Shown here piece by piece: positions 17,860 through 27,899 of a stretch of DNA of 64,000 nucleotides (positions within the stretch are counted from its first letter, which is position 1; the number at the start of each line of letters is the position of its first letter). The DNA comes from an uncultured Myxococcales bacterium (lineage in GTDB: Bacteria > Myxococcota_A > UBA9042): positions 62,001 to 126,000 of the forward strand of contig CAIMLR010000023.1 in NCBI GenBank assembly GCA_903842345.1, given 5' to 3'. Made by a program: the position numbers and the translations under genes. The notes beneath the pieces were generated by a model. That model was not told the origin of the DNA. It made no database searches and saw only the letters and a program-made list of their open reading frames with translations.

Positions 17860-18975
17860 ATGCGCTTTCACTTTGCCCTCTTGCCCGTTCTTCTCGTGTT
17901 TGTCGGTTGCGGCAAGCCGCCGCGGCCCAATCCGGCAGGGCCCGGCATCACCGACAAGGCGCTGCAGGCCACGGTTGAGCAGGTGCCCAAGGCCAAGATC
18001 TCGACGGACGATTCCCAGCTGACGCCGGAGCAGCGCGCGGTGGTCGTCGCCCGGATCGGCGAGCACACGATCACGCTGGGTGAGATTGAGGCGCGGCTGG
18101 CGCGCGAGCCCGCCGTGGTGCGCAGCCAGTTTGCAAGCCCGCAGAAGCGCAAAGAGTATCTGACAAGCTTGGTGCAGTTTGAGCTGCTGGCCGCGGAAGC
18201 GGCGCGGCGTGGCCTGGCCAGCGATCCGGAAGTGCTGGAAGCCGCCAAGCAGGCGATGATTCGCAAGTTCCTGGCCGACGCGGCCGTGGATGCGGTCAAG
18301 CCGGAATCGCTGACGGACGCGGATCTGAAGGCGTACTACGACGCGAATCCCGGGCTGTACCACAAGCCGGATCAGGTGGAAGTCAGCCACATTCTGGTCA
18401 AGGACGCGGCGACGGCGGAGCGGATCGCCAAGGAACTGCGGTCAGCGTCGGAAGGCGCGTCGGCCAAGCTCGTCGTGGCGTGGAACGATTACGTGGGACG
18501 GCTGTCTCTGGATCAGGCGACCATTCCGTATCTCGGCTCCCTCGGCCTGGTGTCCAAGGCGCCGCTGCAAGGCGCGACGCCCGCGGATCTGGAGCGCCTC
18601 GCGCGCGTGCCGGCGGAGGTGATTGAGGCCGCGATGAACCGGGAGATTTTCACCATCGGCACGCCGGTGCAGTCGCCCCAGGGCTGGCACGTGCTGATGG
18701 TGACGTCCAAGGTGCCAGCGGTCGACAAGGCCTTTGCTGACGTGAAAGACGCGATTCGCACGCGGCTGGTCAAGCGCGAGCGCGATCTCAAGCGCCAGAA
18801 GCTTGTGGATGACCTGCGCGCCGCGGCCAAGATTGAACTCAATGAAGACGCGCTGGGGCAGCTGCCGGTGACGCCGCTGCCGATCAAGGGCAAAGGCATG
18901 CCGGGGCAGGGCGATTTGCCGCCGGGCCTGTCGAACAACAAGCAACCGGCGGATCCGACGCCTTCTGAGCTGTAG
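17860..18975 (+). CDS. PpiC/parvulin-type peptidyl-prolyl isomerase lipoprotein
   Basis: MRFHFALLPVLLVFVGCGK lipobox; VEVSHILVKDAATAERIAKEL...TPVQSPQGWHVLMVTSK. Confidence 0.85.
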   Translation: MRFHFALLPVLLVFVGCGKPPRPNPAGPGITDKALQATVEQVPKAKISTDDSQLTPEQRAVVVARIGEHTITLGEIEARLAREPAVVRSQFASPQKRKEYLTSLVQFELLAAEAARRGLASDPEVLEAAKQAMIRKFLADAAVDAVKPESLTDADLKAYYDANPGLYHKPDQVEVSHILVKDAATAERIAKELRSASEGASAKLVVAWNDYVGRLSLDQATIPYLGSLGLVSKAPLQGATPADLERLARVPAEVIEAAMNREIFTIGTPVQSPQGWHVLMVTSKVPAVDKAFADVKDAIRTRLVKRERDLKRQKLVDDLRAAAKIELNEDALGQLPVTPLPIKGKGMPGQGDLPPGLSNNKQPADPTPSEL

Positions 18976-18978
18976 CTG

Positions 18979-20025
18979 ATGCTGAAACTGTTTTTCGTGC
19001 TGGCGCTGCTGGCCGTGCCGACCGGCGCGCTCGCGGCGGATCCTGCGCCCAAGCCGACTGAAGTGATTGTGCCGCCCAAGCCGGTCCTGGCGGCGCGGCG
19101 TGCGACGCTGCCGCAGGGGTACCACGAGGTTGACGGCGTGGTCGCAACGGTGGGCGACACGGCGATCCTGCAAAGTGAGCTGCGCCGCGCCATGGGCCAG
19201 ACGCGCGGCGGCAATGACCCGGTGCCGTCGGCTGAGCCGCGGAGTGCCGACGCGCTGCGCAAACAGACGCTGGATACGCTGATCGACAACGCGCTTGTGG
19301 CAAAAGCGGCAAAGGATCTCGGGCTCGTGGTCAGCGATGGCGAAGTTGACGGCCAGATCGACCAGACGCGCAAGCGGATGCACAAGTCCGCGGACGAGTT
19401 TGAGGACATCGTGCGCAACATGGGCTTTCCGACCACGGCGGCGTATCGCCAGCATGTCCGCACGGAGATGGTGCGCGTCCAGATGCTGCGCGCCAAGATC
19501 GCCGGCAAGCTGCGGGTCACCGACGACGAAGTGAACCGGATCATCGATCAGGAGTATGGCGGCGGGCAATTTGAGGACGAGGTGCACTCGCGGCACATGC
19601 TCATCGGCGTGCCGGACGACGCCAATCCGCAGCGCGTGACGGAGTTGCGCGACCGTGCGTGGCATTGCTACGACGACGTCGCGGTGCACAAGAAAGCGTG
19701 GGATGAAGTCGCGGAGGAGTGCAATGACGACTCGGCGACGTCCGAGGGCCACGGCGACCTGGGCTGGCAGAAGCGCTGGACGCTGGACCCGACCTTTGGC
19801 AACAAGCTGTGGTCGCTGCAGCCGGGCGAGATCTCCACGGTCGTGCAGACGCCGTACGGTTTCCACATCATCCAGTTCATCGAGCGGCGCCGCGTGCCGG
19901 TCAAGGACAAGCAAGTGCTGACGGACTACGTCCGCGCGCGGCTTCAGGAAGAGCAGTTCACCAAGCTGTACAAGTCGTGGCTCGAGGAGATGCGCGGGAG
20001 CGCGCACATCGACCTGCGGCTTTAG
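18979..20025 (+). CDS. SurA-like periplasmic peptidyl-prolyl isomerase
   Basis: MLKLFFVLALLAVPTGALAA signal peptide; VDGVVATVGDTAILQSEL; EVHSRHMLIGVPDD; VQTPYGFHIIQFIER. Confidence 0.88.
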   Translation: MLKLFFVLALLAVPTGALAADPAPKPTEVIVPPKPVLAARRATLPQGYHEVDGVVATVGDTAILQSELRRAMGQTRGGNDPVPSAEPRSADALRKQTLDTLIDNALVAKAAKDLGLVVSDGEVDGQIDQTRKRMHKSADEFEDIVRNMGFPTTAAYRQHVRTEMVRVQMLRAKIAGKLRVTDDEVNRIIDQEYGGGQFEDEVHSRHMLIGVPDDANPQRVTELRDRAWHCYDDVAVHKKAWDEVAEECNDDSATSEGHGDLGWQKRWTLDPTFGNKLWSLQPGEISTVVQTPYGFHIIQFIERRRVPVKDKQVLTDYVRARLQEEQFTKLYKSWLEEMRGSAHIDLRL

Positions 20026-20046: not shown

Positions 20047-21588
20047 ATGACGACGATCCAGCGGTTGGGGCAGCGCGCGGCGCTGGTGATGGCGCTCGCG
20101 GTGCAGACGGCGTGCGGCGGCGGCAGTGAGCAGGTCGCGGGCGGTCCCCGGAGCGCGCAGGCCAACGCCTACGAGAAGAAGTGCAACTTCAACGCCGGCA
20201 AGCAGCGGTTTGAGCTGGCGCAGAACAACTACACGCCGCTCTCCCTGAGCGTGACGCAGTGGCCGGGCCATGCCGAGACTGTACTGACGGAAGCGCAGTT
20301 GGTGGCGGTGCTGGCCAAGGGCGACGTCAAACGCGCGTCGATTTTTGCCCGCGGCGGCCTGGGCAAGACCCGGCTGGCGGAGTCCCTGCGCGGTCAACTG
20401 TGCGGCAAGATGCCGGTCTTCCTCGTGGATGCCAAGGAAGTGGCCAAGCCGGGCGCGACGGGCAATCCGCTCCTGCGCGCGGTGCAGGCCGAGGCTGGGC
20501 CGGACGTGCCGGCGTTCGTCCAGGATGTGGCCAGCGGCCGCGCGCTGTTCCTGCTGGACGGCCTGGACGAGGTGGCGATTGCGCGGCGCAACGTCGTGCT
20601 GCTGGCGCTGCAAGACGCGGTCGTCCAGCTGCCCAACGCGCAATTTGTCCTGCTGGCGCGGCCACCGGTGCTCGATGCGGACTATGGCTTTACCCCGGTA
20701 GACGCGCGCTGGGCGATCCAGCCGCTGCAGTGTCCGGAAACGGACGCCTTCATCGCCCAGGCGGTGAAGGACGCCGCGGAGCGCGGGCAATTCCTGCAGT
20801 TCCTGCACCGCTACGGTCTGGACGCCAGGGCGACGGTGGGCGCAACGTGCGCGTATCCGTATTTGGCGAGCTTTGGCGACATCAAGACGCTCGTGGAGTT
20901 CCACAAGAAGACGCTGGACCCGAAATCCGATCTCATCGTCAGCCGTGCGCGTGTGCACGAAGCGCTCGTGGGCGCGCGCCTGACCAAGGAATTGCGCGAG
21001 TTGGGCTGGAGCGAGGAGCAGGCGCTGGGCCTTGTGGATCGCCTGGTGGCGGCGCAGCTGAAGCGCAAGGAAAGCGCGGCGATGCGGCTGGACATGGCCG
21101 ATTGCGAGGCGGTCGTCGATGCGGGCGCGAGCACGGCCGCGGAAGATCGCCAGCGGGTGTGTGAAAACGTCTTTCAGTCCGCGCTGTTTCAGCCAATTCC
21201 CGGCGACAACGCCGTGCAATTCGCCAGCGACGGCCTCGCCAACCTGTTTGTCGCCCGCTGGCTGAACAGCGAGCTCGCCGCGCAGAAGGCCCAGGGCTGC
21301 GGCGCGGCGCTCAATCGCGAGGCATTCATCCGCGATGACGACGTGTTCCGGTTCCTCATCGCCCAGCCCGCCGGCCTCAAGTGCGTGATGCCGCTCCTGG
21401 ATGACCGTTGCAGCCGCATCAAGAGCCTGAAGGCCGACCAGGTCGAGATCCTCGACGCGGGCCTGCCGATCGGCAAGGCGCGGCCGCAGATCATCCAGCA
21501 GATGCGCGCGGGCTACGAGGCGACGCACTGGAAGCTGTGCGTCAGGAATACGTTGACGTCGATGGAAGGGACGACGAGCATTCCCTGA
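20047..21588 (+). CDS. NACHT/STAND-like NTPase with N-terminal export or lipoprotein-like signal
   Basis: Walker A-like ASIFARGGLGKTRLAESL; Walker B ALFLLDGLDEV; sensor-like FVLLARPP; FASDGLANLFVARWLNSEL resembles the NACHT 'fxHxxxqEfxaAxyL' helix. N-terminus MTTIQRLGQRAALVMALAVQTACGGG looks exported. Confidence 0.65.
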   Translation: MTTIQRLGQRAALVMALAVQTACGGGSEQVAGGPRSAQANAYEKKCNFNAGKQRFELAQNNYTPLSLSVTQWPGHAETVLTEAQLVAVLAKGDVKRASIFARGGLGKTRLAESLRGQLCGKMPVFLVDAKEVAKPGATGNPLLRAVQAEAGPDVPAFVQDVASGRALFLLDGLDEVAIARRNVVLLALQDAVVQLPNAQFVLLARPPVLDADYGFTPVDARWAIQPLQCPETDAFIAQAVKDAAERGQFLQFLHRYGLDARATVGATCAYPYLASFGDIKTLVEFHKKTLDPKSDLIVSRARVHEALVGARLTKELRELGWSEEQALGLVDRLVAAQLKRKESAAMRLDMADCEAVVDAGASTAAEDRQRVCENVFQSALFQPIPGDNAVQFASDGLANLFVARWLNSELAAQKAQGCGAALNREAFIRDDDVFRFLIAQPAGLKCVMPLLDDRCSRIKSLKADQVEILDAGLPIGKARPQIIQQMRAGYEATHWKLCVRNTLTSMEGTTSIP

Positions 21589-21664: not shown

Positions 21665-23461
21665 ATGTTGCCTGCACCCGTTCCCGATGATGAAGACGCC
21701 CGCCTCCGCGCTTTGGCGCGCTATCAGATCCTCGACACGGTTCCCGAGCGCGAGTTTGATGCGCTGACGGAAATCGCGGCGCATATTCTGGACGTGCCAA
21801 TTGTGCTGATCTCAATCGTCGCGGCCGACCGCCAGTGGTTCAAGGCGCGCCACGGTCTGGACGTTTCGGAGACGCCGCGCGACGTGTCGTTCTGTGGTCA
21901 TGCGGTGGCGGCGAAGGCGACGCTGATTGTGCCCGACGCGCTGGCGGATGCGCGTTTTGCCGACAATCCGCTGGTGACGGGTGACCCGCACGTGCGGTTC
22001 TATGCGGGCGTGCCGCTGGAGACGCCGGAAGGGCAGGCGCTGGGGACGCTGTGCGCCATCGACCGCCAGCCGCGGGAACTCACGGCCGAGCAAAAGCGGC
22101 TGCTGGAAATGCTCGCGCGCCAAGCCATTGCGCTGCTGGCGCTGCGGCGGCGGACTCTGGAGCTCGAGGCGGCGGAGTTGGAGCGCAAGCGGCTGACCCA
22201 CGAGATCGTCACCCTGCTGGACCACATGCCCGCGTTGATCGGCTATTGGGACAAGGATCTGCGCAACCGCCACGCCAACAAAGCGTACTTCCAATGGTTC
22301 GGCCTGCAGCCCGAGGTCATTCGCGGCATGCACATTCGCGACGTGATCGGCGAGGAGATGTACGCGCTGAACCTGCCGCGCATTGAGGCGGCGCTGCGCG
22401 GCGAAGCGCAGGTGTTCTACCGGGAACAGGTGGGGCCAGACGGGAAGCTGCGGTACTCACAAGCGACGTATATTCCGGATTTTGCCAACGGCGAAGTGCG
22501 CGGTTTCTTTGTGATGTTTACGGACATCACCGAGCGCCGCTTGATTGAGAATGCGCTCTTTGCCGAAAAGGAGACTGCGCGCACCACGCTTGGCGCCATT
22601 ACGGAGGCCGTGATCACGGCCGATGCGGCGGGCCGGGTTGGCTACTTGAATCCGGTCGCTGAGCAGTTGACGGGCTGGTCGCAAGCCGCGGCGCACGGGC
22701 AGCCCATCGCGGCGGTGCTGGCGCTGCGGGCTTTTTCCGGGCAGTCGGAGGCCGAGTTGCTGCGGGCGGCGATTGCCGGCACGGGGGCAGTCGCGGGCAA
22801 GCGCACCGCGTGGCTGCTGCGGCGCGATGGGTCGCAGCTGGCGGTGGAATACACGCTGTCGGCGCTGCATGGTCCGGAAGGCGAGCCGACGGGCGCGGTT
22901 GTTGTGGCGCATGACGTCAGCGAGGCGCGTGAGCAGGCGATTCGCATGACGCGGCTCGCTTATCACGATGCGCTGACGGGCCTGCCCAACCGGCTGCTGC
23001 TGCACGACCGGCTGGAGCAGGCGGTGGAAGATGCGCGCCGCGGCCACGCCCGTTTCGCGGTTGTGTTCATCGATCTGGATGAGTTCAAGGAGCTGAGCCT
23101 GGCGCTTGGCGAAGAGACCGCGGACGCCGTCCTGCGCGCGGTGGCGCAACGCCTGCGCGCGTCCGTGCGCGGGAGCGACACGGTGAGCCGTTTTGGCGGC
23201 GACGAGTTCGTGGTCCTGCTCTCCGCGGTGACCGACAAGGCGAGCGCCGTGGGGCAAGCGGCCAAGCTGCTGGACCTCATGCAGGAGCCGCTGCAGGTCG
23301 GCGAGCTGACCGTGCCGGCGTCGTACAGCGTCGGCGTGAGTGTGTACCCGGACGATGACACGGACGCAGCGACGCTGCTCACGCACGCGGAAGCGGCGAT
23401 GCAGGACGCCAAGCGCGCCGGGCGGAATTGTCTGCGGGTGTTTGCGGCAAGCGCGGCGTGA
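21665..23461 (+). CDS. GAF-PAS-PAS-GGDEF diguanylate cyclase
   Basis: N-terminal GAF (RYQILDTVPEREFDALTEIAAHIL), two PAS segments, YHDALTGLPNR and FGGDEF with RGSD I-site five residues upstream. Confidence 0.92.
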   Translation: MLPAPVPDDEDARLRALARYQILDTVPEREFDALTEIAAHILDVPIVLISIVAADRQWFKARHGLDVSETPRDVSFCGHAVAAKATLIVPDALADARFADNPLVTGDPHVRFYAGVPLETPEGQALGTLCAIDRQPRELTAEQKRLLEMLARQAIALLALRRRTLELEAAELERKRLTHEIVTLLDHMPALIGYWDKDLRNRHANKAYFQWFGLQPEVIRGMHIRDVIGEEMYALNLPRIEAALRGEAQVFYREQVGPDGKLRYSQATYIPDFANGEVRGFFVMFTDITERRLIENALFAEKETARTTLGAITEAVITADAAGRVGYLNPVAEQLTGWSQAAAHGQPIAAVLALRAFSGQSEAELLRAAIAGTGAVAGKRTAWLLRRDGSQLAVEYTLSALHGPEGEPTGAVVVAHDVSEAREQAIRMTRLAYHDALTGLPNRLLLHDRLEQAVEDARRGHARFAVVFIDLDEFKELSLALGEETADAVLRAVAQRLRASVRGSDTVSRFGGDEFVVLLSAVTDKASAVGQAAKLLDLMQEPLQVGELTVPASYSVGVSVYPDDDTDAATLLTHAEAAMQDAKRAGRNCLRVFAASAA

Positions 23462-23468
23462 TCGGTGT

Positions 23469-23502
23469 GAGGCGCTCGCGTGTTGGCGCGAACGGGCGCC
23501 TC
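23469..23502. terminator. Probable bidirectional hairpin between convergent genes
   Basis: GAGGCGC-TCGCG-TGTTGG-CGCGA-ACGG-GCGCCTC: nested perfect 7-bp and 5-bp stems between stop codons at 23461 and 23501. Confidence 0.6.
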
Positions 23503-26500
23503 AGGGCACGCATCCCGGCAGCGCGGTGTGCACGCACGCTTGGGTGAACGGATTGCACGTGTCCGCTGTGCACTTGTTGGCGTCATCGCACTGGGCATCG
23601 GTCGTGCACTGCGGATTCGGGTTGCACTGCGCCAGCTTCTGGTACAGGCAGTTGCCGGTGTACGGATTGCAGATGTCCTGCGTGCACGGGTCGCCATCGC
23701 TGCAGTCGCTGTCCGCCGTGCAGGACGCGCCGCAGCCGGCGATCTTCTGGTACGCACAGCCGCCGGACTGCTTGTCGCACGCGTCATTGGTGCACGGATT
23801 CTTGTCGTCGCAGAGCACCGTCGCGCCGCTGCACACGCCGGAGCTGCAGATGTCCGCGCTTGTGCACGCATTGCCGTCGTCGCAGCTGATGCCGCTGGTG
23901 GCGGTGTTCGCGCACGCGCCGCCCACGCACGCGTCCGTTGTGCACGCGTAGTTGTCGTTGCACTGCGCGTCGGACTTGCACTTCTTGCCGCACTTCGGGT
24001 CGACCTTGAACACGCACTGGCCGTCCTTCGGGTTGCAGGCGTCAATCGTGCACGGGTCGTTGTCATTGCAGACCGTGGCGGCGCCGCCGATGCACGTGGC
24101 CATGCCGCACGTGTCGCCGGTGGTGCAGGCGTTGCCGTCGTCGCACGCGACGCCGCTTGTGCCGGCCGCGTGGGTGCAGCCACCTGTCGTGGCGTCGCAG
24201 CTGTCCACGGTGCACGGGTTCTTGTCGTCGCATGCCGCGACGGAGCCCGCGGCGCAGAGGCCGAGCGCGCACTTGTCGCCCACGGTGCAGACGTTGCCGT
24301 CGTCGCACGCCGGGCCGCTGATGGCCGTCGCGGCGCACTTGTTCAGCGTGCACGTGTCGGTTGTGCAGACGTTGCCGTCGTTGCAGTCGCTCGCCACGGT
24401 GCACGGGCCGCCGCAGCCGTTGACCGCCGTGTGCGTGCACGCGCCAGTGACGGGATCGCAGGCGTCCAGCGTGCACGCGTTCTTGTCGTCGCAGGTGCCT
24501 GCGACCTTGCCCTGGCACACGCCGGTCTGGCAGACGTCCCCGCCGGTGCACAGGTTGCCGTCGTCGCAGAAGCTGCCGGTCAACGCCGGCGCGTTCTGGC
24601 ATTTGCCGCTGTTGGCGTTGCAGCCGTCCTTGGTGCACGGATTGTTGTCATTGCAGTTGAGCGCGGTGCCCTTGCAGATGCCGCCCACGCAGGCGTCGGT
24701 GCTCGTGCACGGGTTGTTGTCGTTGCACGTCGCGCCCGTCAGCGGCGCGTCCTGGCACTGTCCGGCGACGCACGACGTCTGGATGCACTGCGACTTGATT
24801 GTGCAATCCGCGGCCGTGGCGCAGTTGTTGCCGCATTTGGGAATCGGCGTGAAGAGGCACTTGCCGGTCGACGCCTGACAGTGGTCGAGCGTGCAGTCGT
24901 TGCTGTCATTGCACACGGTCGCGGCGCCGGTGCAACTGCCCGCGGCGCACGCGTCGCCGGTCGTGCATGCATTGCCGTCGTTGCAGCCGCTGCCGGTGGG
25001 TGCCGCGGTGTAGCTGCACGCGCCAAGCGCCGGGTCGCACGCGTCGACGGTGCACGGGTTGTTGTCGTTGCACGTGACGGGCTTGCCCGTTTGGCACGCA
25101 CCGTTCAGGCAGACGTCGCCCTGCGTGCAACTGTTGCCGTCGCTGCACGTCGTGCCGTCCGCGGGGCCGCTGTTGCAGTGGCCGGCCGAACAGCTCTCTG
25201 ACGTGCACACGTTCTTGTCATCGCAATCCGCGTCCACCTTGCACGCTGCGCCGCAGAGCGGAATCGCCGTGTGGAGGCATGCGCCGGTGCTCGCGTCGCA
25301 ACTGTCCGCGGTGCAGCTGTCGCCGTCGTCACACGGAAGTTGGGAAGTGCCGACGCATACGCCGGTCTTGCACGCGTCCCCGCTGGTGCAGAGATTGCCG
25401 TCGTTGCACGGCACGTTGTTGGGGCCGGGGCCGGTGAGGCAGCCGCCGGTCTGTGGATTGCACGCGTCCTTCGTACAGACGTTGCCGTCGTTGCAGATCG
25501 TGGCCACGCCCTGGCAGACGCCCTGGCCGTTGACGATGGCGCACACGTCCCCGCTCGTGCACGCGTTGCCGTCGCTGCACACGGTGCCGGCGGTCGGCGC
25601 CTGGACGCACTTGCCAGCGACGCAGCTGTCGGCCGTGCAGCCGTTCTTGTCGTTGCACTGGCCGTTCGTCGTGCAGGTCGCGCCGCAGTTGGCAATCGCA
25701 GTGTGGGTGCAGCCGCCGGTCTTGGGGTCGCACGCGTCGGTGGTGCACGCGTCGCCGTCGTCGCAGTTGGTCGCGGCGCCTTTGCAGACGCCCGCGGCGC
25801 ACGCGTCGCCCGTCGTGCACTGCTTGCCGTCGCTGCACGCGGTGCCGTCGACTTCCGCGGCGTGGCCGCAGCCGCCCGTCGCCTTGTCACACGTGTCGGT
25901 GGTGCACGGGTCGCCGTCGGTGCAGTTGGTCTTGACGCCGGGCGCGCAGACGCCGCCGGTGCATTGGTCGCCGAGCGTGCACGCGTTGCCGTCCTCGCAC
26001 GCCTTGCCGTTGTTGCCCGGGACAAATGCGCACTTGCCGGTGCCCGGCGCGCAGGTGTCAAACGTGCAGGGGTTCTTGTCGTCGCAGACTACCGGCTTGG
26101 CGGCGCACACGCCCGCGGCGCAGGCGTCGCCGGTCGTGCAGGCGTCCCCGTCGCTACACGTCTTGCCGTCGGCGACCGCGGCCTGCACGCAGGTGCCGCT
26201 GACGCAGCTCGCCGTGACGCAGCCGTTGGACGTCGTGCAATCCGTGTCGATCGTGCACTGCGATCCGCATCCGGCGATCGGCGCAAAGGCGCACGCGCCC
26301 GTTTGCAGCGCGCAACTGTCGGCGGTGCACGCGTTCTTGTCGTCGCACACAGTGGCGGCGCCGGTGCACGCGCCGTTGCTGCAGGTGTCGCCCGTTGTGC
26401 ACGGGTTGTTGTCGTCGCACGTGCCGCTCAACGGCGTCGGTTGGCAGAGTCCCGTCGCGGCGTCGCACGTGCTGCCCAGGCACGTCGAGGCGTTGCCGCA

Positions 26501-27778
26501 CACTTTGGCCGTGCCCGCGCACGTTCCGCTCACGCACGCGTCGTCGCTGGTGCACAGGCTGCCGTCGTCGCACGGCTTGCCGCTGCTCGGGGCGTGGCTG
26601 CAGGCGCCGGTAGCGGATTCGCACGCGTCGTCGGTGCAGGCGTTGCCGTCGTTGCAGTCCTTGGCCGTGCCGCCGCATGCGCCGCCCGCGCAGGTGTCGG
26701 CGGTTGTGCAGGCTTGGCCGTCGTCGCAGGTGCCGCCGTCGATGGCGGCAAAAGCGCACTTGCCCGCTGTGCACGCGTCGGTGGTGCACGGGTTCTTGTC
26801 GCTGCAGTCGCTCGCCACCTTGCAGGGCGCGCCGCAGCCGACAATCGCCGTGAACACGCACCCGCTGGCTTTGGCGTCGCAGGTGTCAGTGGTGCACGGG
26901 TTGCCGTCGTCGCACGCCGTCGCCTTGCCCACGCATTGGCCGGCCACGCAGGCATCGCCGGTGGTGCAGGAGATGCCGTCGTCGCAAACGCCGCCGTTGG
27001 CAATGGCGGTCGCGGTGCACTTGCCGCTCGCCGGATCGCAGGCATCGGCGGTGCACGCGTTGCCGTCACTGCATGCCACTGGCTGCCCGACGCAGAGGCC
27101 AGCGTCGCAGCTTTCGCCCGTTGTGCACTTGAGGCCGTCGTCGCACGGCGTCGCGTCCGCTTGCGGGGTGGAATGGCACGCGCCCGTGGCGACATCGCAC
27201 GTGTCCGAGGTGCAGCTGTTGCCGTCGTCGCAGTCCGCGGCGGTCTTGCACGCGGCGCCGGTGCACGTGGCGTTGGGCGTGAACACGCACGCGCTGTTCT
27301 TGGCGTCGCAGACGTCGTTGGTGCACAAGTCGCCGTCATCGCAGACCCGCGGGGTGCCGCCGCCGCAGACGCCCGCGGTGCACACCTCATCGATCTGGCA
27401 GAACCCGCTCACCCCGCACGCCGTGCCGTCCGCGACGGGGGCTTGCACGCATTCGCCGCCCACGCAGGCAGCTTTGGTGCACCAACTGCCCGTCGTGCTG
27501 CACTCCTCGTCGCTCGTGCAGGTTGGGATGGCGGTGTCGGGCGCATCGCCGTTGTCGCTCGCCGCATCCGTCTGGACCGCCAGATCGGCCTCAATCGACG
27601 TGTCGACGGCGACCTTGGCATCGGTCGTATCCGAATTGAATTGCACGTCGCCGTTCGCCGTCGTGTCCGGTGCTTCCTCGCCCGTGATCACGGCGGCCGT
27701 ATCAGAGCCGCAGCCCGCTGCGCCCAGCAGCGCCGTCAGAGCCACACACCACTGCACCACGTTCTTGCGTTGCCACAT
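23501..27778 (-). CDS. Giant Cys-rich CTDC-repeat surface lipoprotein (~1425 aa)
   Basis: MWQRKNVVQWCVALTALLGAAGCGSD lipobox, then about 44 units like CDDGNPCTTDTCD / CDDGNACTTGDAC, resembling the Dicty_CTDC family. Confidence 0.9.
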   Translation of the reverse strand: MWQRKNVVQWCVALTALLGAAGCGSDTAAVITGEEAPDTTANGDVQFNSDTTDAKVAVDTSIEADLAVQTDAASDNGDAPDTAIPTCTSDEECSTTGSWCTKAACVGGECVQAPVADGTACGVSGFCQIDEVCTAGVCGGGTPRVCDDGDLCTNDVCDAKNSACVFTPNATCTGAACKTAADCDDGNSCTSDTCDVATGACHSTPQADATPCDDGLKCTTGESCDAGLCVGQPVACSDGNACTADACDPASGKCTATAIANGGVCDDGISCTTGDACVAGQCVGKATACDDGNPCTTDTCDAKASGCVFTAIVGCGAPCKVASDCSDKNPCTTDACTAGKCAFAAIDGGTCDDGQACTTADTCAGGACGGTAKDCNDGNACTDDACESATGACSHAPSSGKPCDDGSLCTSDDACVSGTCAGTAKVCGNASTCLGSTCDAATGLCQPTPLSGTCDDNNPCTTGDTCSNGACTGAATVCDDKNACTADSCALQTGACAFAPIAGCGSQCTIDTDCTTSNGCVTASCVSGTCVQAAVADGKTCSDGDACTTGDACAAGVCAAKPVVCDDKNPCTFDTCAPGTGKCAFVPGNNGKACEDGNACTLGDQCTGGVCAPGVKTNCTDGDPCTTDTCDKATGGCGHAAEVDGTACSDGKQCTTGDACAAGVCKGAATNCDDGDACTTDACDPKTGGCTHTAIANCGATCTTNGQCNDKNGCTADSCVAGKCVQAPTAGTVCSDGNACTSGDVCAIVNGQGVCQGVATICNDGNVCTKDACNPQTGGCLTGPGPNNVPCNDGNLCTSGDACKTGVCVGTSQLPCDDGDSCTADSCDASTGACLHTAIPLCGAACKVDADCDDKNVCTSESCSAGHCNSGPADGTTCSDGNSCTQGDVCLNGACQTGKPVTCNDNNPCTVDACDPALGACSYTAAPTGSGCNDGNACTTGDACAAGSCTGAATVCNDSNDCTLDHCQASTGKCLFTPIPKCGNNCATAADCTIKSQCIQTSCVAGQCQDAPLTGATCNDNNPCTSTDACVGGICKGTALNCNDNNPCTKDGCNANSGKCQNAPALTGSFCDDGNLCTGGDVCQTGVCQGKVAGTCDDKNACTLDACDPVTGACTHTAVNGCGGPCTVASDCNDGNVCTTDTCTLNKCAATAISGPACDDGNVCTVGDKCALGLCAAGSVAACDDKNPCTVDSCDATTGGCTHAAGTSGVACDDGNACTTGDTCGMATCIGGAATVCNDNDPCTIDACNPKDGQCVFKVDPKCGKKCKSDAQCNDNYACTTDACVGGACANTATSGISCDDGNACTSADICSSGVCSGATVLCDDKNPCTNDACDKQSGGCAYQKIAGCGASCTADSDCSDGDPCTQDICNPYTGNCLYQKLAQCNPNPQCTTDAQCDDANKCTADTCNPFTQACVHTALPGCVP

Positions 27779-27899
27779 TCCCACTCCTGAACGCCGTCGC
27801 TTGTCCGCACGCCGCGCCGTCAGTATGGCGATGCACGGCCCTTGGCGCAACGACGCGATGGGATGGATTTTGCAGGGTTAGTCAGTCCTGTTGCGGCGC

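Follow-up and report, generated by a model that had tools for sequence, protein, structure and literature searches.

NACHT/STAND NTPases are regarded as ATP switches of the cytoplasm, and a gene that appears to join such a module to an export signal raises the question of how it could operate in a compartment where ATP is scarce. One such gene lies at 20047..21588 (+) of the window, that is, the whole stretch of 64,000 nucleotides of an uncultured Myxococcales genome analysed here. It opens with an ATG codon, encodes 513 amino acids followed by a stop codon, and is annotated as a putative exported NACHT lipoprotein gene on the basis of its open reading frame, its gene family and AlphaFold modelling. 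A preliminary description had read it as a NACHT-like NTPase that appears to be exported or lipidated, and every motif named there was found in the frame. Our analyses place the protein in a clade-specific family of predicted lipoproteins, whose predicted layout comprises a signal peptide, a lipidated cysteine and, beyond a short linker, an NLR-type NACHT module on its own (NBD-HD1-WHD-HD2).

The frame is a real gene on which purifying selection acts, the four genus orthologues showing 72-78% identity and pairwise dN/dS values of 0.15-0.25. The homologue set comprised 71 extracted sequences (19-78% identity), and later additions brought it to up to 92 sequences; paralogues, dN/dS and column conservation in these 71-92 relatives show that the motif and cysteine pattern of the window protein is not due to chance. 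Five family members, including this one, are present in the source genome (5.85 Mb, 50 contigs). Alongside them the genome encodes two NACHT proteins of the ordinary kind (L134 and L135), which look cytoplasmic and have the classical GDxGxGKT P-loop.

A class-wide search found members in 24 of 52 genomes: the 22 sampled from the same bacterial family were all positive, with 2-6 matches each, and the remaining two positive genomes belong to two further families of the class, one each. Across 284 genomes of the phylum, scores dropped abruptly from the NACHT lipoprotein family (E mostly 1e-50 or better, with a few fragments scoring more weakly) to ordinary NACHT proteins (E ~1e-11 or worse). Zero matches were obtained in a plasmid search, and the viral search matched one contig, over the NACHT core only and at 28% identity. 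The family tree resolves ancient paralogue groups. The named records with members are mostly 'uncultured Myxococcales' MAGs, and their isolate names suggest, in our reading, lake or other water samples; the family is predicted to be membrane-anchored and restricted to a clade of uncultured aquatic myxobacteria. Tandem pairs of different members occur in several genomes of the bacterial family (L019/L036, L020/L035, L022/L038, L023/L039, L026/L043 and L025/L049). One member, with its conserved neighbours, was found in a record titled as a Klebsiella pneumoniae MAG (L087, CAMDBH010000012.1), a title that is probably a mislabel.

Structure prediction makes a NACHT fold almost certain. The AlphaFold model of the mature window protein, built with 71 sequences, reached a pLDDT of 89.9 and a pTM of 0.88, and that of the most divergent paralogue of the source genome (L005) reached 89.3 and 0.88. 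The top PDB fold matches of both models were all NLR NACHT modules (NLRC4, NLRP3 and NOD2; E down to 5.8e-12) and both models displayed the NBD-HD1-WHD-HD2 fold, so that the NTPase fold supposed in the preliminary description is predicted with high confidence. The window model is closer to open, activated NLRC4/NAIP (TMq 0.57-0.59) than to closed structures (mostly 0.35-0.43), whereas the L005 model is closer to closed NOD2/NLRC4/NLRP3 (0.55-0.65) than to open structures (0.32-0.38). That the paralogues were modelled in different states of the NLR cycle suggests that the switch geometry has been kept, although the difference may also reflect AlphaFold sampling.

At the sequence level, the Pfam NACHT model (PF05729) scored the window protein at 15.8 bits (E 0.012), below its curated cut-off of 26.7, whereas 10 of the 71 members reached E 0.01 or better with it, the best at 1.9e-7. 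The family profile, however, matched five other Myxococcota proteins (L180-L184) at E ~1e-10 to 1e-12, four of which carry a full and the fifth a partial Pfam NACHT match (4e-7 to 8e-16); homology to NACHT is bridged because the profile finds proteins that Pfam itself calls NACHT. Searching the PDB with the window sequence alone gave no match, and the profile search gave weak P-loop matches only, e.g. ArsA and ADR2. Sub-threshold NCBIfam matches to holin and tail-anchor models were dismissed as chance. Neither an N-terminal effector nor a C-terminal repeat sensor was found, the mature protein being the NACHT module alone (~490 aa).

Export is predicted from the N-terminus. Residues 1-22 (MTTIQRLGQRAALVMALAVQTA; 20047..20112, +) form a putative signal peptide with a basic n-region and a hydrophobic segment, which ends in TA immediately before CGGG, the first residue of the latter being Cys23 (20113..20115, +), the predicted lipidation and cleavage site (+1). 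The preliminary description had singled out this signal-like segment ending in TACGGG, and both signal peptide and lipobox proved near-universal: an equivalent segment precedes the cysteine in nearly all homologues, which do not begin downstream of it. The lipobox cysteine is aligned in 70/71 sequences, position -1 is A, G or S in 68/71 and position +2 is Gly in 53/71, counts that carry some bias from the hand-chosen start codons of the 71 homologues. Under a strict rule (a type II signal peptide with [LVI][ASTVI][GAS]C), 56 of the 71 members passed; among the other genes called near the loci the figure was 46 of 414, and this background itself includes numerous genuine lipoproteins. A Gln at -3 keeps the window copy from passing, and its lipobox was rightly described beforehand as poor, yet the residue is peculiar to this copy and is Leu in all four genus orthologues. 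The signal sequence itself varies freely among orthologues and paralogues while good lipoboxes are retained. In a distant member from another bacterial family (L028), what looks like a plain signal peptide lacks the lipobox cysteine, as if the anchor had changed and export had been kept. The source genome encodes a lipoprotein signal peptidase (Lsp; PF01252, 3.7e-28). On these grounds we consider export and lipidation of the family very probable.

As for destination, in Myxococcus xanthus a Lys at +2 marks lipoproteins for inner-membrane retention and an Ala at +7 for the extracellular matrix (Bhat 2011, PMC3222651). Neither Lys nor Asp occurs at +2 in the family (Lys 0/69), and +7 Ala is found in 9/69 members and is absent from the window protein; with +2 Lys missing in all 69, the family may well be sorted to the outer membrane. 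A separate case is the family member L152 / L158 (G003 contig 262, from base 1), which keeps eight of the ten cysteines and has a transmembrane segment where the others have a lipobox. The N-terminus of L152 is cut by the contig end and could have held a cytoplasmic domain, e.g. a kinase; a receptor kinase was considered and rejected, since no kinase is visible in this gene cut at the contig start.

The cysteines agree with an extracytoplasmic location. About a dozen had been reported; there are 11, the lipobox cysteine plus ten that are conserved and probably paired rather than loose. Most mature family proteins have exactly ten cysteines after the lipobox, and the ten columns hold Cys in 84-89 of the 87-89 sequences covering them. 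All on the + strand, they are Cys46 on the NBD side (20182..20184; 89/89) and Cys119 in the NBD (20401..20403; 89/89); Cys229 (20731..20733; 85/89) and Cys268 (20848..20850; 84/88) in HD1; Cys353 (21103..21105; 88/88) and Cys372 (21160..21162; 88/88) in the WHD; and Cys418 (21298..21300; 87/87), Cys446 (21382..21384; 87/87), Cys455 (21409..21411; 86/87) and Cys498 (21538..21540; 87/87) in HD2. Four sequences (L064, L065, L152 and L157) lack both Cys229 and Cys268, and none lacks just one of them, as a disulfide pair predicts; the two are read as partners. The distribution over subdomains, assigned from the secondary structure of the model and the usual NLR layout, is two in NBD, two in HD1, two in WHD and four in HD2; such even numbers would fit bonds within rigid bodies, with the hinge left free. 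A VKOR-type oxidase was matched in the source genome, whereas a search for DsbB gave no homologue. Five disulfides are, from the conservation pattern, highly likely.

The motifs of the nucleotide site had likewise been recognized beforehand, and their columns are invariant or nearly so in the relatives. Walker A (ARGGLGKT, residues 101-108; 20347..20370, +) retains G104 and G106 in 89/89 and K107 in 88/89 sequences; Walker B (LFLLDGLDE, residues 167-175; 20545..20571, +) retains D171 in 91/91 and E175 in 89/91, with Asp in the other two; the sensor-1-like FVLLARPP (residues 200-207; 20644..20667, +) retains R205 in 89/90. Within the set of 71, the Walker A pattern GxxxxGK[ST] was found with G104, G106, K107 and S/T108 in 71/71, the Walker B pattern hhhhD[GAS]h[DE]E with S/G/A at 172 in 69/71 and D/E174 in 70/71, and the TSRP-like sensor-1 arginine with R205 in 71/71 and P206 in 70/71. 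G104, G106, K107, D171, E175 and R205 are thus invariant in the 71 homologues, down to ~19% identity, in an alignment whose mean column identity is 35%. The classical NACHT WHD motif is FxHxxxxEFxAA. Its counterpart here, FxxxxxxDLFxARW (FASDGLANLFVARWLN, residues 392-407; 21220..21267, +), keeps A403, R404 and W405 near-invariant, but a conserved histidine was not found in the family alignment: position 394 is mostly Asn or Asp (N38, D20, H16, S7) while the remaining motif is kept. As the histidine that contacts ADP is mostly replaced, the switch may be non-classical. Judged by these residues, nucleotide binding by the family is likely. Among the later additions, the Walker lysine is lost in L151 only (G012 contig 67), a degenerate sequence with Lys to Thr in Walker A, an altered Walker B and a missing C-terminus, which is a truncated and probably decaying gene copy.

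The most serious competitor is an exported, disulfide-bonded protein whose P-loop was repurposed, for another phosphate-bearing ligand of the envelope or as a structural or protein-binding site, and which is no ATP switch. The scarcity of ATP outside the cytoplasm would favour it, as would the unconserved WHD histidine and the first Walker A glycine, which is Ala in 81/89 sequences; the preliminary description had correctly seen this Ala, which is a family trait rather than a defect of the window copy. Nevertheless, six catalytic positions held invariant at 35% mean column identity are hard to reconcile with it, the Walker B glutamate and the sensor arginine would be superfluous in a site with a structural role only, and the sole lost Walker lysine belongs to the apparently decaying L151. 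We regard repurposing as unlikely. The premise that the periplasm lacks ATP was too strong, measurable ATP being cited in a review for the periplasm and outer-membrane vesicles of E. coli (PMC7432876).

Taken as a whole, the best explanation, and in our judgement a probable one, is an exported, probably outer-membrane, disulfide-stapled and nucleotide-gated NACHT switch that acts outside the cytoplasm. The protein would be exported unfolded by Sec, lipidated and cut by Lgt and Lsp, and, with no Lys at +2, sorted to the outer membrane. It would fold in the oxidising envelope, where five disulfides would hold every rigid subdomain together without restraining the hinge that joins NBD-HD1 to WHD-HD2, giving a membrane-tethered, nucleotide-gated switch. 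Most speculatively, it might respond to ATP or ADP at the envelope or surface, arising from leakage, vesicles, lysing kin or prey, and its signal might consist in opening and oligomerisation on the membrane or in binding to an envelope partner. An extracytoplasmic nucleotide-gated switch, sensing for example the ATP of lysing neighbours, is the most likely function we infer; that it senses extracellular nucleotide is nonetheless a tentative proposal, and the fuller version, in which NLR-type ATP switches work outside the cytoplasm as membrane-tethered, disulfide-stapled receptors of extracellular nucleotide, alternate between a NOD2-like closed form and an NLRC4-like open one, and assemble on the outer membrane, is somewhat more doubtful still. 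Lacking a sensor or effector domain and a common partner gene, the family offers nothing that points to a particular function. The combination of kept catalytic residues, a lipobox and conserved, probably paired cysteines implies one of two things: these bacteria have nucleotide at hand beyond the cytoplasm and make use of it, or an NLR fold took up a new job there. A bare, disulfide-stabilised NACHT module of ~490 residues, with neither effector nor sensor, would also be convenient for the study of the NLR switch.

Myxobacteria are social and often predatory, and a second alternative holds that the lipoprotein is passed to another cell, by outer-membrane exchange or into prey, and acts in the ATP-rich cytoplasm there. 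The SitA lipoprotein toxins of Myxococcus xanthus, also clade-restricted myxobacterial lipoproteins, are delivered in this way and act in the cytoplasm; they differ in having C-terminal nuclease toxins, immunity genes and no NACHT (PMC5562445). Transfer is improbable for the present family, given that ten cysteines, near-invariant and apparently paired, suit a protein that stays in oxidising surroundings, that a variable toxin domain and an immunity gene are absent, and that ancient paralogues sit in fixed chromosomal loci. Still less probable is a cytoplasmic NACHT protein that is not exported, its N-terminus being merely signal-like or an inward-facing anchor. The usual location of NACHT proteins and the poor lipobox of the window copy, which fails the strict rule, speak for it, but they are outweighed by the good lipoboxes retained in orthologues and paralogues beside a freely varying signal sequence, by ten conserved cysteines that suit an exported protein and by the switch of L028 to a non-lipidated signal sequence. 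Finally, folding and nucleotide loading in the cytoplasm followed by Tat export with trapped ATP or ADP would account for an intact site in an ATP-poor place and make outside ATP needless, but is scarcely credible, since the window protein and most signal peptides compared have no twin-arginine motif and disulfides normally form after export.

The exported switch favoured here is NACHT by its fold and catalytic residues, but it is novel in its compartment and in having no effector, sensor or WHD histidine; literature searches, with subscription papers outside their scope, returned no description of the family. Animal NLRs, which are immune receptors (NLRC4/NAIP, NOD2, NLRP3), provide the best PDB matches and share the NBD-HD1-WHD-HD2 order by fold, together with Walker A, a D[GAS]hDE-type Walker B and the sensor arginine. 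Unlike them, the family is predicted to be exported and lipidated, has ten disulfide-type cysteines and an unconserved WHD histidine, shows ~10-16% identity and has neither a CARD/PYD effector nor an LRR sensor. Ordinary bacterial NACHT proteins (PF05729; L180-L184) match the family profile over the NACHT core, but are open frames of 900-1567 aa with FGE-sulfatase, pentapeptide, metallophosphatase, SIR2 or TIR domains, whereas family members are of ~500 aa and have none of these. Avs/bNACHT anti-phage systems belong to the same STAND/NACHT NTPase class, and Avs3 appears low in the fold list of L005; the family differs in its predicted export and in having no C-terminal repeat sensor. PADLOC defence models gave no meaningful match among the 71 members, the best being 0.0019 to TRIP13 in 1/71, with none for the window protein. 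In contrast to the setting of Avs/bNACHT, the genes inspected beside the family copies of the source genome resemble housekeeping or envelope genes.

The eukaryotic ER has a supply of ATP. With that difference, TorsinA, an AAA+ P-loop ATPase of the ER and a glycoprotein, is a precedent for a P-loop ATPase working in a secretory-pathway compartment (PMC7567157, PMC4320221); it is AAA+ rather than NACHT and has no lipid anchor. A precedent in predicted location is the second target of DGR 3 of Thiohalocapsa PB-PSB1, which combines NACHT with a C-type lectin and is predicted to be periplasmic, so that its NACHT domain would also lie outside the cytoplasm (PMC10907252). It is a retroelement-diversified lectin fusion from another phylum, and the excerpted text of that report describes no family-wide lipobox or conserved-cysteine signature.

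Upstream of the NACHT gene lie a gene for a prolyl isomerase of the PpiC type, which also has a lipoprotein signal (MRFHFALLPVLLVFVGCGK; 17860..18975, +; Pfam Rotamase_2 5e-17), and one for a SurA-like periplasmic chaperone (18979..20025, +; Rotamase 1.5e-18, SurA_N_3 2.8e-17), whose stop codon precedes the NACHT gene by 21 nt. This synteny holds in 5/5 genus members. A functional partnership with SurA/PpiC was nevertheless set aside in favour of genus-level synteny, since the other paralogue groups have different neighbours; a partner gene common to all groups was sought and none was found, each group having its own conserved neighbours. Besides the window group, a second group has a LamB/YcsF-like gene, TldD/PmbA-like genes and a gene for a PPC-domain lipoprotein in its vicinity, and a third adjoins CysH-like, SRPBCC-like and ThiF/rhodanese-like genes. 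In a fourth, the genes downstream encode a probable outer-membrane protein and two lipoproteins unassigned to a family. Names given without a Pfam call are our reading of the sequence. A conserved three-gene set, a probable outer-membrane protein and two lipoproteins with a Pfam match for none, adjoins another exported NACHT paralogue at L129:10488-15904 and at L092, L094, L097, L100, L101 and L103. Directly 3' of the NACHT gene in the window, at 21665-23461 (+), lies a GAF-PAS-PAS-GGDEF diguanylate cyclase kept in most genus members. It is followed at 23501-27850 (-) by a very large Cys-rich protein, secreted or lipoprotein-like, with repeats such as DDGNACTTDTC, and similar genes occur near other family loci.
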